From contig NZ_JARANZ010000007.1 of the NCBI RefSeq assembly GCF_029889905.1, positions 124,001 through 188,000 on the forward strand: a stretch of 64,000 nucleotides of DNA, read 5' to 3'. Positions within the stretch are counted from its first letter, which is position 1, and the number at the start of each line of letters is the position of its first letter. Source of the DNA: Chromohalobacter sp. 11-W (lineage in GTDB: Bacteria; Pseudomonadota; Gammaproteobacteria; Pseudomonadales; Halomonadaceae). The notes beneath the pieces were generated by a model. That model was not told the DNA's origin. It did no database searches and saw only the letters and a list, made by a program, of their open reading frames with translations. Both the position numbers and the translations under genes were made by a program. This document shows positions 41,768 to 47,985 of this stretch, in pieces.

Positions 41768-41823
41768 AGACGGGTGTCATGCTTCCGGGGCAGCGGTTGA
41801 TCACCAGCGACGACAGGGAGCTC

Positions 41824-44028
41824 ATGATGGACGGTACGCGCTCTTCCGATGTTCCCCTCGGTAGCGACAACACCACCTCTCAGGAGGCCGGTGAAACGCC
41901 GCCGCTACGCGTCAATCGCACGCGCACGGGCATTCACGCCAAGCCCGCGCCGTTCCCCGAGGCCGATCTTGACGATCCGGCACTGTATTTCAATCGCGAA
42001 CTCTCGCACCTGCAGTTCAATATCCGCGTTCTCGAACAGTCCTTGGACACCTCGCATCCACTGCTCAATCGGCTGATGTTCCTGCTGATCTTCTCCTCCA
42101 ATCTGGACGAGTTCTTCGAGATTCGCGTGGCCGGCCTCAAGCACCAGATTGCTCTAGCCCGCGAGGAAAGCGGCGCCGACGGCATGCCACCACGCCAAGT
42201 GCTGACCGAGATATCGCGCATCGCCCACGAGCAAGTCGAGCGGCAATACCGCATCCTCAACGAGACGTTGATTCCCGCGCTCGAAGAGCAACGCCTGCGT
42301 TTTCGTCGCCGCACGCAGTGGACCGAGGCCCAGGCCGACTGGGTACGCGAGTATTTCGCCGAGGAGATCATGCCGGTGATCAGCCCCATCGGCCTGGACC
42401 CTTCGCATCCATTTCCTCGTCTGGTCAACAAGAGCTTGAACTTCATCGTCGAGCTCGAAGGCACCGATGCCTTCGGCCGTGAAGGGGGACTTGCCATCCT
42501 GCCTGCGCCACGCTCCCTGCCACGCTTGATGCGCCTGCCCGAAGCACTGAGCGAAGCCCGTTATACCGAATACGTCTTCCTGTCGTCGATGATCCATGCC
42601 CACGCGCAGGAAGTGTTTCCCGGCATGCAGGTACGCGGTTGCTACCAGTTCCGCCTGACGCGCAACGCCGATCTGGCCGTCGACCCCGAGGACGTCTCGG
42701 ACTTGGCCTCGGCCTTGCGCGGTGAACTGCTGGCACGACGCTACGGTAGTGGCGTGCGCCTCGAGGTGGCCGATAATTGTCCCGACCGGCTGTCGCGCTT
42801 CCTGCTCACCCAGTTCGAACTCGAGGCGGCGGACCTCTACCGCGTATCCGGCCCGGTCAACCTGACTCGGCTGATGTCGGTACTCAGTGATGTCGACCGC
42901 CCTGACCTTTTGTATCGCACCTTCACGCCAGGGTTGCCACGTCAGGTCAAGAGCGATGTCAGCCTGTTCACGCAGATCGCCCAGAACGATATTCTACTGC
43001 ACCATCCCTTCCAGTCGTTTGCACTGATCGAAGACTGGCTCCAGGAGGCCGCCAGCGATCCGGACGTGCTGGCGATCAAGCAGACCCTGTACCGAACCGG
43101 CGCCGATTCGCCCATCGTCAGCGCCCTGGTCGATGCCGCACGCAACGGCAAGGAAGTCACCGTGGTCATCGAGCTGCGGGCACGCTTCGACGAGGCCGAC
43201 AACCTCGCGCTGGCATCGCGCCTTCAAGAAGCCGGCGCCATCGTCATCTACGGCGTCATGGCCTACAAGACGCATGCCAAGATGCTCCACGTGGTCCGCC
43301 GTGAACGCGGCGCATTGCGCTACTACGCGCATCTAGGCACCGGCAACTATCACTCCAAGACGGCCAAGTTGTACACCGACTACAGTCTGCTCACCGCCAA
43401 CGAGACGCTTTGCGAAGACGTTCACAAGGTCTTCCAGCAGCTCTCGGGTATGGGCAAGCCGCGCCAGATCGACACGCTCCTGCACGCGCCATTCGTGCTG
43501 CACGACCGCCTGGTGTCGATGATCGACCGCGAAGCGCGTCACGCCGAAAAGGGCCAAAAGGCGCAGCTGATCATCAAGTGCAACTCGTTGACCGATCCAC
43601 AGTTGATCCGCGCGCTGTATCGCGCCTCGCGCGCCGGGGTGCAATGCGACCTGATCATTCGCGGTATGTGCTGCCTGCGCCCCGGCGTCGAAGGGATCTC
43701 CGACAATATCCGGGTGCGCTCGATCATCGGTCGCTTCCTGGAACATACCCGCGTATTCCATTTCCACAATGGCGGCAAGCCCGAAACCTGGTGCTCCAGC
43801 GCGGACTTCATGGAACGCAACATGTTTCGCCGCGTGGAGACCTGCTTCCCGCTGCTCGACAAGAAGCTCGCCCAGCGCGTACGCAAGGATCTGGCCACCT
43901 ACTTGGTGGACAACTGTCAGAGCTGGGAGCTGCAGACCGACGGCCGCTACCGTCTCCTCGATGCCGGCGACGCCGAACCGATCAGCGCCCAGGAAACCTT
44001 GCTCTACGCCTACGCCGCCAAGCCCTGA
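41824..44028 (+). CDS. ppk: Polyphosphate kinase 1
   Basis: Makes long-chain polyphosphate from ATP, reversibly. The 734-aa protein has the N-domain (ALYFNRELSHLQFNIRVLEQS), the head domain and the two PLD-like catalytic domains with the autophosphorylated His in AYKTHAKMLHV, then LGTGNYHSKTAKLYTDY and the second His region near RVFHFHNGG. ATG 41824 is chosen for GGGAG upstream; an in-frame start at 41779 is possible. Preceded by a Pho box and followed by heptamer repeats and a terminator. The exopolyphosphatase ppx is 9.4 kb away rather than adjacent. Confidence 0.96.
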   Translation: MMDGTRSSDVPLGSDNTTSQEAGETPPLRVNRTRTGIHAKPAPFPEADLDDPALYFNRELSHLQFNIRVLEQSLDTSHPLLNRLMFLLIFSSNLDEFFEIRVAGLKHQIALAREESGADGMPPRQVLTEISRIAHEQVERQYRILNETLIPALEEQRLRFRRRTQWTEAQADWVREYFAEEIMPVISPIGLDPSHPFPRLVNKSLNFIVELEGTDAFGREGGLAILPAPRSLPRLMRLPEALSEARYTEYVFLSSMIHAHAQEVFPGMQVRGCYQFRLTRNADLAVDPEDVSDLASALRGELLARRYGSGVRLEVADNCPDRLSRFLLTQFELEAADLYRVSGPVNLTRLMSVLSDVDRPDLLYRTFTPGLPRQVKSDVSLFTQIAQNDILLHHPFQSFALIEDWLQEAASDPDVLAIKQTLYRTGADSPIVSALVDAARNGKEVTVVIELRARFDEADNLALASRLQEAGAIVIYGVMAYKTHAKMLHVVRRERGALRYYAHLGTGNYHSKTAKLYTDYSLLTANETLCEDVHKVFQQLSGMGKPRQIDTLLHAPFVLHDRLVSMIDREARHAEKGQKAQLIIKCNSLTDPQLIRALYRASRAGVQCDLIIRGMCCLRPGVEGISDNIRVRSIIGRFLEHTRVFHFHNGGKPETWCSSADFMERNMFRRVETCFPLLDKKLAQRVRKDLATYLVDNCQSWELQTDGRYRLLDAGDAEPISAQETLLYAYAAKP

Positions 44029-44077
44029 GCTCGAAGCTCGAAGCTCGAAGCTCGAAGCTCGAAGCTCGAAGCTCGAA
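44029..44077 (+). repeat. Seven-copy GCTCGAA heptamer array
   Basis: Seven perfect head-to-tail GCTCGAA units start one base after the ppk stop codon. The 7-bp period, not a multiple of three, and the place outside genes show it is not coding; the reverse complement reads as TTCGAGC repeats. Partial copies occur after hslU. Confidence 0.92.
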
Positions 44078-44092
44078 GGCAGCCTAAACACC

Positions 44093-44136
44093 ACCGCCTC
44101 CGTCGCGAGCTCAAGCGACGGAGGCGGTTTTCTTTT
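44093..44136 (+). terminator. Rho-independent terminator of ppk
   Basis: A perfect 14-bp stem (44093-44106 with 44115-44128), loop of eight, and TTTCTTTT. It lies between ppk and the convergent phoX gene and may serve both. Confidence 0.88.
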
Positions 44137-46425: not shown

Positions 46426-47496
46426 TCAAGCACATGCGTCGCACAACCGCTCGGCGGCCAATGTCAGCAAGTGCTCGGTGCCTTCCCAGCCCAGGCAGGC
46501 ATCGGTGACGGAGACGCCATAACGCATGGCACCCGGCTTCAGCGCCTGCTTGCCTTCGTACAGGTGGCTTTCCAGCATCACGCCGACCAAATCGCGATCG
46601 CCGGCCAGACGCTGCTCGAGCACATCGAGCATGACCTCGGTCTGACGGCGGTGGTCTTTGCGCGAATTGGCATGGCTGCAGTCGACCATCAAACGCGGCG
46701 TGATACCGGCATTCTGTAGCTCGCGGCGACAGGCACGCACCGAGTCCACATCGTAGTTGGGCTTGCCATGCCCGCCACGCAGCACCACGTGGGTATGCGG
46801 ATTGCCGTCGGTCTCGCGCATCGCCGGGCGACCAGCATCGTCGAGAGCGAAATGACGATGCGGGTGCGCAGCGGACTGCATCGCGGCAACGGCGACATCG
46901 ACGCTGCCGTCGGTGCCATTCTTGAAACCCACCGCGGCGCGCAGGCCACTGGCGAGTTCACGATGGATCTGCGACTCGGTGGTGCGTGCCCCGATGGCCA
47001 CCCAACTGAGCAGGTCTTCCAGGTACGGCGCGGCCATCGGCTGCAGTAATTCGGTGGCCACGGGCATGCCCAGGGCGGCGATGTCACGCATCAAGCGCCG
47101 CGAGACCTCCAGGCCATGCGCCATGTCGTCGCTGCCATCCAGGTGCGGGTCGTAGGCGAGGCCCTTCCAGCCCACGGTGGTACGCGGCTTTTCGACATAT
47201 ACACGCATGACCAGCAGCAGACGGTCGTCGAGGCGCGCGGCGAGCTCACTGAGCTTTTCAGCGTATTCCAGCGCCGCGCACGGATCGTGAATCGAGCAGG
47301 GCCCCACCACGACCAGCAGGCGGTCGTCGCGGCCATCGAGAATGGCCTGAATCTCGCCACGCTGGCGTTCGATCTGCTCCTCCAGGGCGTCTCCCAGCGA
47401 CAGGCGCTGCTTGAGCTCACCCGGTGTGGGCAAGGGCTGATGAGAAGGTGCCGTGGCGATCTCGGGGCGTTGGGGCATCGTCAAGGGTGCGTTCAT
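46426..47496 (-). CDS. aroG: Class I 3-deoxy-7-phosphoheptulonate (DAHP) synthase
   Basis: First step of the shikimate pathway: PEP plus erythrose 4-phosphate to DAHP. The 356-aa protein has VVGPCSIHDP, MRVYVEKPRTTVGWKG, the TESQIHRELASGLRAAVGFKNGTDG core and LMVDCSHANSRKDHRR, all typical of AroF/AroG/AroH enzymes; which isozyme, and thus which feedback effector, cannot be told by eye. ATG 47496 is preferred; a GTG at 47526 would extend it by ten codons. It is preceded by a leader peptide and attenuator (47713-47985), so expression should respond to charged aromatic tRNAs. The symbol aroG is a family label only. Confidence 0.93.
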   Translation of the reverse strand: MNAPLTMPQRPEIATAPSHQPLPTPGELKQRLSLGDALEEQIERQRGEIQAILDGRDDRLLVVVGPCSIHDPCAALEYAEKLSELAARLDDRLLLVMRVYVEKPRTTVGWKGLAYDPHLDGSDDMAHGLEVSRRLMRDIAALGMPVATELLQPMAAPYLEDLLSWVAIGARTTESQIHRELASGLRAAVGFKNGTDGSVDVAVAAMQSAAHPHRHFALDDAGRPAMRETDGNPHTHVVLRGGHGKPNYDVDSVRACRRELQNAGITPRLMVDCSHANSRKDHRRQTEVMLDVLEQRLAGDRDLVGVMLESHLYEGKQALKPGAMRYGVSVTDACLGWEGTEHLLTLAAERLCDACA

Positions 47497-47712
47497 GTCG
47501 AGTCTCTTGTCTGGGCTGTCCGTCACGAGCGGACAGCGGAACTTCGTGTTCGGCGGACGCCACCCAGCGTTTCACGGTCGGAGGTGGCAGCTAAGACCGA
47601 CCGGACGTCGCTAAATCGCCAATAATATAGTGCCTGCGTGCTCTGCCATGCGCCGCCGATCTCGAACATGTTTCGCTCCCGTGTCATTCGTCAAAAAAGG
47701 GGTGGATTAAAC

Positions 47713-47747
47713 GCAAAAACCCCCGGTCGGGTTGCCGACCGGGGGTT
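47713..47747 (-). terminator. Attenuator terminator before the DAHP synthase gene
   Basis: Perfect 13-bp stem (47718-47730 with 47735-47747) around GTTG with a short U-run on the minus strand. No ordinary gene ends here; it lies after the leader peptide. Its loop region (47729-47736, GGCAACCC in the RNA) is complementary to GGGTTGCC at 47761-47768, an antiterminator partner that would also tie up the G-run of the 3' arm. Confidence 0.82.
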
Positions 47748-47775
47748 CGAAGACGCAGGAGGCAACCCGGGGTGG

Positions 47776-47825
47776 GGCGTGCCTCGCGGCGTATCAGGTC
47801 ATGTGACCCTACCGCCGGGCACGCC
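47776..47825 (-). promoter_or_regulatory. Leader protector hairpin (arms 1 and 2 of the attenuator)
   Basis: Arm 1 (47811-47825, codons 37-41 of the leader peptide) pairs with arm 2 (47776-47790), 12 of 15 positions, including 8 consecutive pairs. A ribosome stalled at the aromatic codons just upstream would leave this pairing altered; one reading to the stop codon would cover arm 1. This is the usual switch geometry; pairing is seen, function inferred. Confidence 0.6.
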
Positions 47826-47933
47826 GGGGCTAAACCAATACCAATAGCTAAAGCCAAAGAACGCGCGCGCACTCTCTTCCGCTGCCTGAATCGGCAGGGA
47901 ATACATGCTTGCGGTGGCTGATGCTATCGACAT
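47799..47933 (-). CDS. Aromatic-rich leader peptide of the DAHP synthase attenuator
   Basis: A 44-codon frame, ATG at 47933 with GGAG seven bases upstream, stop at 47799. Residues 25-34 read FFGFSYWYWF: four Phe, two Tyr and two Trp in ten codons (47832-47861), far beyond chance and just before the hairpin arms. It is the classic control codon run of ribosome-mediated attenuation, here for all three aromatic amino acids. It is too short to be a typical protein, and its only evident role is sensing charged tRNA-Phe, tRNA-Tyr and tRNA-Trp. It matches no product I can name. Confidence 0.85.
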   Translation of the reverse strand: MSIASATASMYSLPIQAAEESARAFFGFSYWYWFSPGVPGGRVT

Positions 47934-47957
47934 GGGTTGACTCCAAAACATGCTCTC

Positions 47958-47985
47958 ATCCTACACGGCTGTCGCCATTTGGCAA
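47958..47985 (-). promoter_or_regulatory. Sigma-70 promoter of the leader-DAHP synthase unit
   Basis: On the minus strand: -35 TTGCCA (47980-47985, five of six), 16-bp spacer, -10 TAGGAT (47958-47963, four of six). A start near 47951 places the leader ribosome site only a few bases from the 5' end, as in other attenuated operons. Confidence 0.65.

Follow-up and report, generated by a model that had tools for sequence, protein, structure and literature searches.

Two probable ribosome-sensing leaders in series before a DAHP synthase gene of Chromohalobacter sp. 11-W and its relatives

Introduction

The trpL, pheL and his attenuators of enteric bacteria combine control codons in a leader, competing hairpins and an intrinsic terminator. 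In C. glutamicum, gene aroF is preceded by the AroR leader, whose source study is reportedly the work of Neshat et al. from 2014. As described in the accessible portions of PMC4046766 and PMC11802643, AroR consists of a Phe-Tyr-Phe peptide plus attenuation, and is said to answer limitation of Phe, not of Tyr. What is available of PMC8632094 mentions that attenuation of E. coli aroF was hypothesized in 1980 and presents the uORFC-13-1 motif, located before Acholeplasma aroF, as a predicted uORF attenuator. Likewise, according to the available part of PMC1262725, the LEU element predicted before leuA in Actinobacteria comprises a control-codon leader, a conserved pseudoknot/alternative hairpin and pairing with the Shine-Dalgarno (SD) sequence.

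Here we analyze two short open reading frames with aromatic codons, designated leader 1 and leader 2, that lie between a promoter-like sequence and a DAHP synthase gene. Our main reading, to which we give a probability of roughly 0.7, is that they are two ribosome-sensing leaders in series, of which the first acts as a transcription attenuator and the second is a further aromatic leader. Leader 1 would share with AroR a leader peptide and attenuation before a DAHP synthase gene; however, AroR is from an actinobacterium, and the accessible text of PMC4046766 and PMC11802643 names neither a Trp codon nor a second leader or a pseudoknot. The uORFC-13-1 motif differs from both leaders and, in the part of PMC8632094 available, comes from Acholeplasma and environmental sequences only. 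From the accessible description, the LEU element is the closest in design to leader 2 with its putative pseudoknot, but it concerns leucine, its codon run itself pairs with the SD sequence and no preceding transcription attenuator is described there. Leader 2 is aromatic and precedes DAHP synthase, in place of a leucine codon run before leuA paired with the SD sequence, and by analogy would at most work alike.

Results

The locus and the elements of leader 1

The window, i.e., the whole stretch of 64,000 nt analyzed, contains on its minus strand a dihydromonapterin reductase gene (NF005066, above cut-off), followed by a gap of about 0.5 kb and by the DAHP synthase gene. The elements of the gene and of leader 1 are:

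46426–47496, minus strand: DAHP synthase (aroFGH family), the gene presumed to be regulated (profile matches)
47958–47985, minus strand: promoter-like hexamers TTGCCA / TAGGAT with a 16-nt spacer (pattern scan)
47799–47933, minus strand: leader 1 ORF, 44 aa, MSIASATASMYSLPIQAAEESARAFFGFSYWYWFSPGVPGGRVT (open frame; conserved in 10/10 genomes of the genus)
47832–47861, minus strand: leader 1 control codons FFGFSYWYWF, 8 aromatic residues of 10
47818–47825, minus strand: segment a (GGCGTGCC), pairs with b (folding; also in relatives)
47776–47785, minus strand: segment b (GAGGCACGCC), partner of a or c (folding)
47761–47768, minus strand: segment c (GGGTTGCC), partner of b or d, putative antiterminator (compensated pairs, state folding)
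47729–47736, minus strand: segment d (GGCAACCC), terminator loop and 3′ arm (compensated c:d pairs)
47715–47747, minus strand: intrinsic terminator of 13 pairs plus U-run, 3′ end of the P15-like RNA (pattern scan, folding)

A sequence-only reading of this DNA had placed a ribosome-mediated attenuator here, before a gene that it took for DAHP synthase, and its description was borne out element by element. Profile searches with the gene gave 516 bits for NF009395 and 452 bits for TIGR00034. The promoter-like hexamers lie on the minus strand at 47985–47958 (TTGCCA-16-TAGGAT), and the 44-codon frame has its ATG at 47933, a GGAG upstream and its stop at 47801–47799, between segments a and b (in P15 loci, see below, the stop is at the end of a). 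The eight aromatic residues in ten codons at 47861–47832 form the sole site in the six frames of the 64 kb window with at least six aromatic residues in ten codons. Folding against shuffles recovered the hairpin a:b after this run (47825–47776, −32.9 kcal/mol, z −5.3) and the 13-pair terminator (47747–47718, −27 kcal/mol, z −5.1), on which the pattern scan agreed; the whole leader 1 fold reached a z of −7.2. The antiterminator match of 47768–47761 with 47736–47729 is exact over 8 bases. The sequence-only reading overlooked a second aromatic leader ORF at 47669–47523.

The pattern TTG[CT]CA plus TAGGAT is kept in the 10/10 genomes of the genus, and the pattern scan found two promoter-like sites in 651 bases vs. 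0.3 expected. The second one (ATGGCA-16-TATTAT, 47649–47622) is within leader 2, 3′ of the leader-1 terminator, and, if real, would bypass leader 1.

Each of the 10/10 genomes of the genus has two DAHP synthases, and in all of them leader 1 precedes the copy orthologous to that of the window. The second copy is without a leader in the 700 nt upstream scanned in these ten genomes, where no stretch of 10 codons has more than four aromatic residues.

Conservation of leader 1

We retrieved upstream regions from 70 of the 121 searched genomes of the window's family (f1), which from its named members we take to be Halomonadaceae. Leader 1 was found by a loose pattern in 65/70 of these loci, and together with its terminator by a strict script in 46/70. 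Among the five loci without a match in the loose search (L028, L049, L054, L070, and L076), an aromatic frame is nevertheless present in L049, L054, and L076. Within the genus the frame is conserved in 10/10 genomes, with the run degraded to LSGFSYGYWF in two and to VGFGYWYWF in one. Codons for Phe, Tyr and Trp occur together in 77/77 leader-1 cores, of which the pattern presupposes Phe and one of Trp or Tyr. Codon usage in these cores was TTT 115 / TTC 48 and TAT 142 / TAC 21, compared with TTT 18 / TTC 79 and TAT 33 / TAC 46 in six genes from the window.

The run, the hairpins, the antiterminator and the terminator recur across the window's family and are also found in P15-bearing genomes of other families, so that the attenuator is not refuted by the lack of conservation that had been named as counting against it. 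None of 20 DAHP synthase loci sampled from other families of the order shows TGGCGATTTA or TATTGGTTTAGC, and two of the 20 have another aromatic frame. These two, L217 and L222 of family f20, carry a leader ending in AVFFWWFGYGFYFSQS, about 190–430 nt upstream of the match to DAHP synthase (a copy with ca. 53% identity); this leader is a candidate for a further aromatic attenuator.

Competing pairings in leader 1

Segments a to d offer three pairings, a:b, b:c and c:d, each of which competes with the next; the last one draws on the terminator's loop and 3′ arm. In the mechanism that we propose, a ribosome slowed at the Phe, Tyr or Trp codons would stay upstream of segment a, leaving a to pair with b; c would then be free to capture d, the terminator could not close and transcription would continue. 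A ribosome reaching the stop codon would instead cover a, so that b would capture c and the terminator would close, releasing a short RNA (P15 in Pseudomonas). We infer that leader 1 responds in this way to charged tRNA.

The comparison with the trp, phe and his operons made in the sequence-only reading holds for the layout of control codons, competing hairpins and intrinsic terminator, which leader 1 shares with the enteric trpL, pheL and his attenuators, but not for the pairing logic. Unlike in these, the control codons of leader 1 are located before segment a, so that a stall permits a:b; one more segment, whose pairing c:d extends to the loop of the terminator, brings the outcome back to the customary sign. 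The trp parity, in which the stall masks the first segment, was rejected because the control codons precede segment a and because folding of the window contradicts it, with c:d at the stall and b:c at the stop.

Changes in the relatives preserve the match of c with d, as in GGGTTGCC:GGCAACCC, GGGCTGCC:GGCAGCCC, CGTGCTGCC:GGCAGCACG and GGTTGCC:GGTAACC (identical sequences were collapsed for this comparison and for the state folding). Co-change stands out most in L059 and L064, whose terminator loop has changed as well (CGTGCTGCC:GGCAGCACG). A swap test of c:d gave a modest average difference (−17.9 kcal/mol for own vs. −15.9 kcal/mol for swapped partners) because many genomes carry identical letters.

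The transcript up to d was folded for a ribosome placed on either the last Trp codon or the stop, using a thermodynamic model only. For the window, the probability of c:d was 0.99 at the last Trp codon, 0.11 at the stop and 0.98 without ribosome. The mean over 99 distinct family sequences was 0.93 at the last Trp codon vs. 0.63 at the stop; from stop to stall, 48 of them rise by more than 0.1, one falls and 50 are flat. In 12 P15 loci the respective means were 0.92 and 0.34, with 10 rising, none falling and two flat. Over all 111 sequences, the modeled effect of ribosome position is clear in 58, flat in 52 and reverse in one, such that state-dependent c:d pairing is predicted for the window and for about half of its relatives.

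The locus has a conserved leader ORF with a run of end-product (aromatic) codons, an intrinsic terminator between leader and gene, and an antiterminator that excludes the terminator and is kept, for individual pairs, by compensated changes. Together, these results support the ribosome-mediated attenuator put forward in the sequence-only reading.

A second aromatic leader

Between the leader-1 terminator and DAHP synthase there is a second ORF carrying ALYYWRFSD, with the following elements:

47523–47669, minus strand: leader 2 ORF, 48 aa, MFEIGGAWQSTQALYYWRFSDVRSVLAATSDRETLGGVRRTRSSAVRS (10/10 genomes of the genus, 53/70 family loci)
47680–47674, minus strand: GGGAGCG before leader 2
47613–47627, minus strand: leader 2 control codons Tyr-Tyr-Trp-Arg-Phe (TAT TAT TGG CGA TTT)
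47575–47603, minus strand: stem A, CGGTCGG (47603–47597) with CCGACCG (47581–47575) (covariation)
47559–47588, minus strand: stem B, crossing A, GCCACC (47588–47583) with GGTGGC (47564–47559) (conserved pairing)

A stretch of 27 bases in leader 2, from GCACTATATTATTGG to AGCGAC, is identical in the 10/10 genomes of the genus. In the 53 family loci, two codons are near-invariant (CGA in 53, TTT in 52) under a motif search that admitted few variants, CGC, CGG, AGA and TTC among others. The motif also retrieved leader 2 in 24/30 P15 loci of family f21 (e.g., MNTTYYRYYRNSDWRFSS); inspection by eye of the other six suggested three misplaced gene starts and three variant motifs. We assembled 61 leader-2 cores from the 53 family loci plus eight P15 loci; locus L194 (f21) has leader 2 and was left out of this set, with no gene start placed. 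Tyr, Trp and Phe are present in 61/61 cores, of which the motif presupposes Trp and Phe, not Tyr, and the codon position of Tyr shifts between loci. Leader 2 was not found in nine loci from genus g3 that have leader 1 (L024, L034, L042, L046, L047, L068, L072, L074, and L075), which constitute a single-leader natural control.

Crossing stems after the leader 2 codons

In the window's family, the Trp-Arg-Phe codons of leader 2 are followed by two crossing stems in an H-type pseudoknot arrangement. For 46 distinct sequences of the family a gap-free alignment of the core was obtained, and 44/46 have loop lengths of 8 and 10 nt. Four divergent loci (L048, L059, L064, and L080) are outside this alignment and two others (L026 and L032), with stem B out of register, were dropped from it, leaving 44 sequences. 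In these, 98.2% of the cells of stems A and B are paired, and double-sided changes affect 5 pairs and 19 cells; no measure was reached by more than 1 of 500 shuffles. Slid versions of the stems were 22–51% paired, and a slide by +3 gave 14 doubly changed cells. Stem A contributes most of this signal: its outermost pair accounts for 14 of the 19 doubly changed cells and is left open in 7/44 sequences. Stem B alone is 98.9% paired in the 44 sequences, with one cell changed on both sides and 52/500 shuffles as good. The six divergent loci show the pseudoknot arrangement with other letters, such as CGTCCTGCCTC / TGTCACC / GGGGCAGGGCG / GGTGACG in L048, and in each of them 0 or 1 of 60 letter shuffles scored as high.

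A search of GTDB genomes with the exact core pattern returned 113 loci (L081–L193). In 95 of them a same-strand DAHP synthase lies downstream; the remaining 18 comprise five leader-2 loci truncated at the edge of the locus and 13 apparent chance matches. All of these loci were excluded from the covariation counts because the search pattern fixes the stems. A covariance model of the core matched 5/194 genomes of the order, these being four of the seven from the window's family and one from f21. No pseudoknot was found in 7/7 loci searched in f21, and L194, from this family, has a shorter version equaled by 3 of 60 shuffles. Nested folding of the stem region of the window was no better than shuffles (z +0.78), and we did not rely on the RNAalifold result, in which stem A appears along with GGTGGC weakly paired to the Trp-Arg-Phe region. 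The two stems could form simultaneously, as an H-type pseudoknot, or act as two alternating hairpins.

Between a few and some 12 nt past stem B there is a conserved motif without known partner: it reads CGAACAC in the window (47552–47546), in its genus and in many f21 loci, and CGATGT in most of the aligned family loci.

How leader 2 may act on DAHP synthase

There is no TTTT between the Trp codon of leader 2 and the gene in 61/61 cores, on which ground a second transcription terminator was rejected; since there is no U-run, leader 2 probably acts on translation, and translation of DAHP synthase is its most likely target. A frameshift fusing leader 2 to the gene was also discarded, as the distance separating the leader-2 stop from the start of the gene is not constant in frame.

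A possible route involves the sequence CGGAG, which matches CTCCG at the junction of the leader-2 stems and precedes DAHP synthase in 69/92 pattern-found loci vs. 12/228 other genes there, with close relatives counted repeatedly. The ribosome binding site (RBS) of leader 2 itself is AGGAG in 92/112 and CGGAG in 1/112, with identical sequences collapsed here and in the nested folding of leader 2 described below. Among loci drawn without the core pattern, CGGAG precedes DAHP synthase in 22/53, and in the window's genus in 0/10, so that this route cannot apply in the window itself. We propose that leader 2, reached by readthrough of leader 1, presents its Tyr-Trp-Arg-Phe codons ahead of the crossing stems; in the genera with CGGAG, a stalled ribosome would leave the knot folded, hiding CTCCG and leaving the CGGAG of the gene free, while a ribosome running through would open the knot. 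In nested folding, the accessibility of the RBS was flat across ribosome positions on leader 2 (0.43–0.45), rising to 0.52 only once the 3′ arm of stem A was covered. These comparisons support the presence and structure of leader 2, but not the sign and route of its action. In the window's genus, which has no CGGAG RBS, the leader-2 stop codon lies within a hairpin at 47537–47515 (GCTGTCCG / CGGACAGC).

In 30/53 family loci, the leader-2 stop and the gene's ATG are close together, the first base of the stop being −14 to +10 nt from that of the ATG; this proximity is also compatible with translational coupling, which would have the opposite sign. Another reading draws on it: leader 1 alone would regulate, and leader 2 would be an ORF translated for coupling, which senses no amino acid and carries ribosomes through the structured region to the start of DAHP synthase. 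The SD match is also longer at leader 2 than at the gene (means of 4.9 and 4.05), although this comparison is biased by starts having been chosen partly by their SD. We nevertheless consider such a coupling ORF unlikely, as it accounts neither for the presence of Tyr, Trp and Phe in every leader-2 core, with Tyr at shifting positions, nor for the crossing stems that, in the window's family, immediately follow the codons for Trp-Arg-Phe.

The compact crossing stems, their nearly constant loop lengths and their position before a biosynthetic gene would also suit a metabolite-binding riboswitch, with the ORF being incidental. This we regard as quite improbable: the loop sequences vary, the core is inside an open frame with an SD sequence and aromatic codons, and no Rfam riboswitch matched the window or five loci. 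At the gathering score, no Rfam model matched the window, T-box and known riboswitches included, and the ten matches obtained in the five loci with E up to 1 were to P15, P37, sodF sRNA and His_leader, all below cut-off.

Leader 1 and Pseudomonas sRNA P15

Returning to the reading of two ribosome-sensing leaders, at a permissive threshold the leader 1 region matched Pseudomonas sRNA P15 (Rfam RF00627) with 48.3 bits over model positions 1–119, in a full-length alignment that includes the terminator. Because this score does not reach the gathering cut-off of 70 bits, leader 1 of the window is a P15 homolog and not a filed member of the family. The terminators of P15 and leader 1 are nearly identical and both are found in the same place before DAHP synthase, but in leader 1 the hairpin that separates the control codons from the terminator is longer.

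Under strict filtering, P15 exceeds its cut-off in 10/194 genomes of the order. In family f21, probably Pseudomonadaceae, it is above cut-off in 37/59 genomes and without a match in 19/59. The P15-matched locus lies before a DAHP synthase in 14/14 cases of a first set, which includes two weak matches from the family of the window, and in 30/30 f21 loci (available for 30 of 40 matching genomes); seven loci are common to both sets, giving 37/37 distinct loci. Outside the order but within the class, the P15 locus L229 is also before DAHP synthase, and L230, a weak match (28 bits), is not.

P15 is among the sRNAs found by Livny et al., as listed in PMC2375449. We found no function for it in the literature searched (open-licence papers), and its Rfam description names none. 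From the sequence comparisons, P15 is most likely the terminated leader of a DAHP synthase attenuator. Attenuator RNAs can gain trans roles, and Rfam files P15 as a gene-type RNA, but that P15 and its relative in the window are independent genes for trans-acting small RNAs that happen to precede DAHP synthase is scarcely tenable given the conserved frame with aromatic codons, the compensated c:d pairs and the invariable presence of DAHP synthase downstream of the distinct loci. P15 may nonetheless have a trans role in addition.

Discussion

Conservation of the leaders, compensated c:d pairs, covariation of stem A and position before DAHP synthase are all computed from the sequences. A bolder reading is tentative, with chances that we put slightly below even: in Halomonadaceae, DAHP synthase would be gated twice by the charging of aromatic tRNAs, at transcription by a P15-type attenuator whose pairing order departs from that of trp and then at translation by the second aromatic leader, whose pseudoknot switch would conceal or expose an anti-Shine-Dalgarno segment. 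P15 would be the discarded product of the first gate, and in the P15-bearing f21 genomes the second leader, also present there, would have another downstream structure.

If true, two ribosome sensors of different mechanism would operate in series, and the aromatic pathway may be controlled at its entry by the three product tRNAs simultaneously. P15, an RNA family without assigned function, would likewise gain a probable one. In the literature searched (open-licence papers), we found no assignment of P15 to a DAHP synthase leader, no tandem aromatic leaders and no case of the leader 1 pairing order before DAHP synthase. Nor did we find described there a layout in which a transcription attenuator comes first and a second translated leader next, both of them containing codons for Phe, Tyr and Trp; the tandem aromatic arrangement before DAHP synthase appears to be new.

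Elsewhere in the window, units SSFELRA / SSKLEAR repeat in overlapping frames at 44010–44114, at the end of the frame 41779–44028, which suggests a short tandem repeat.
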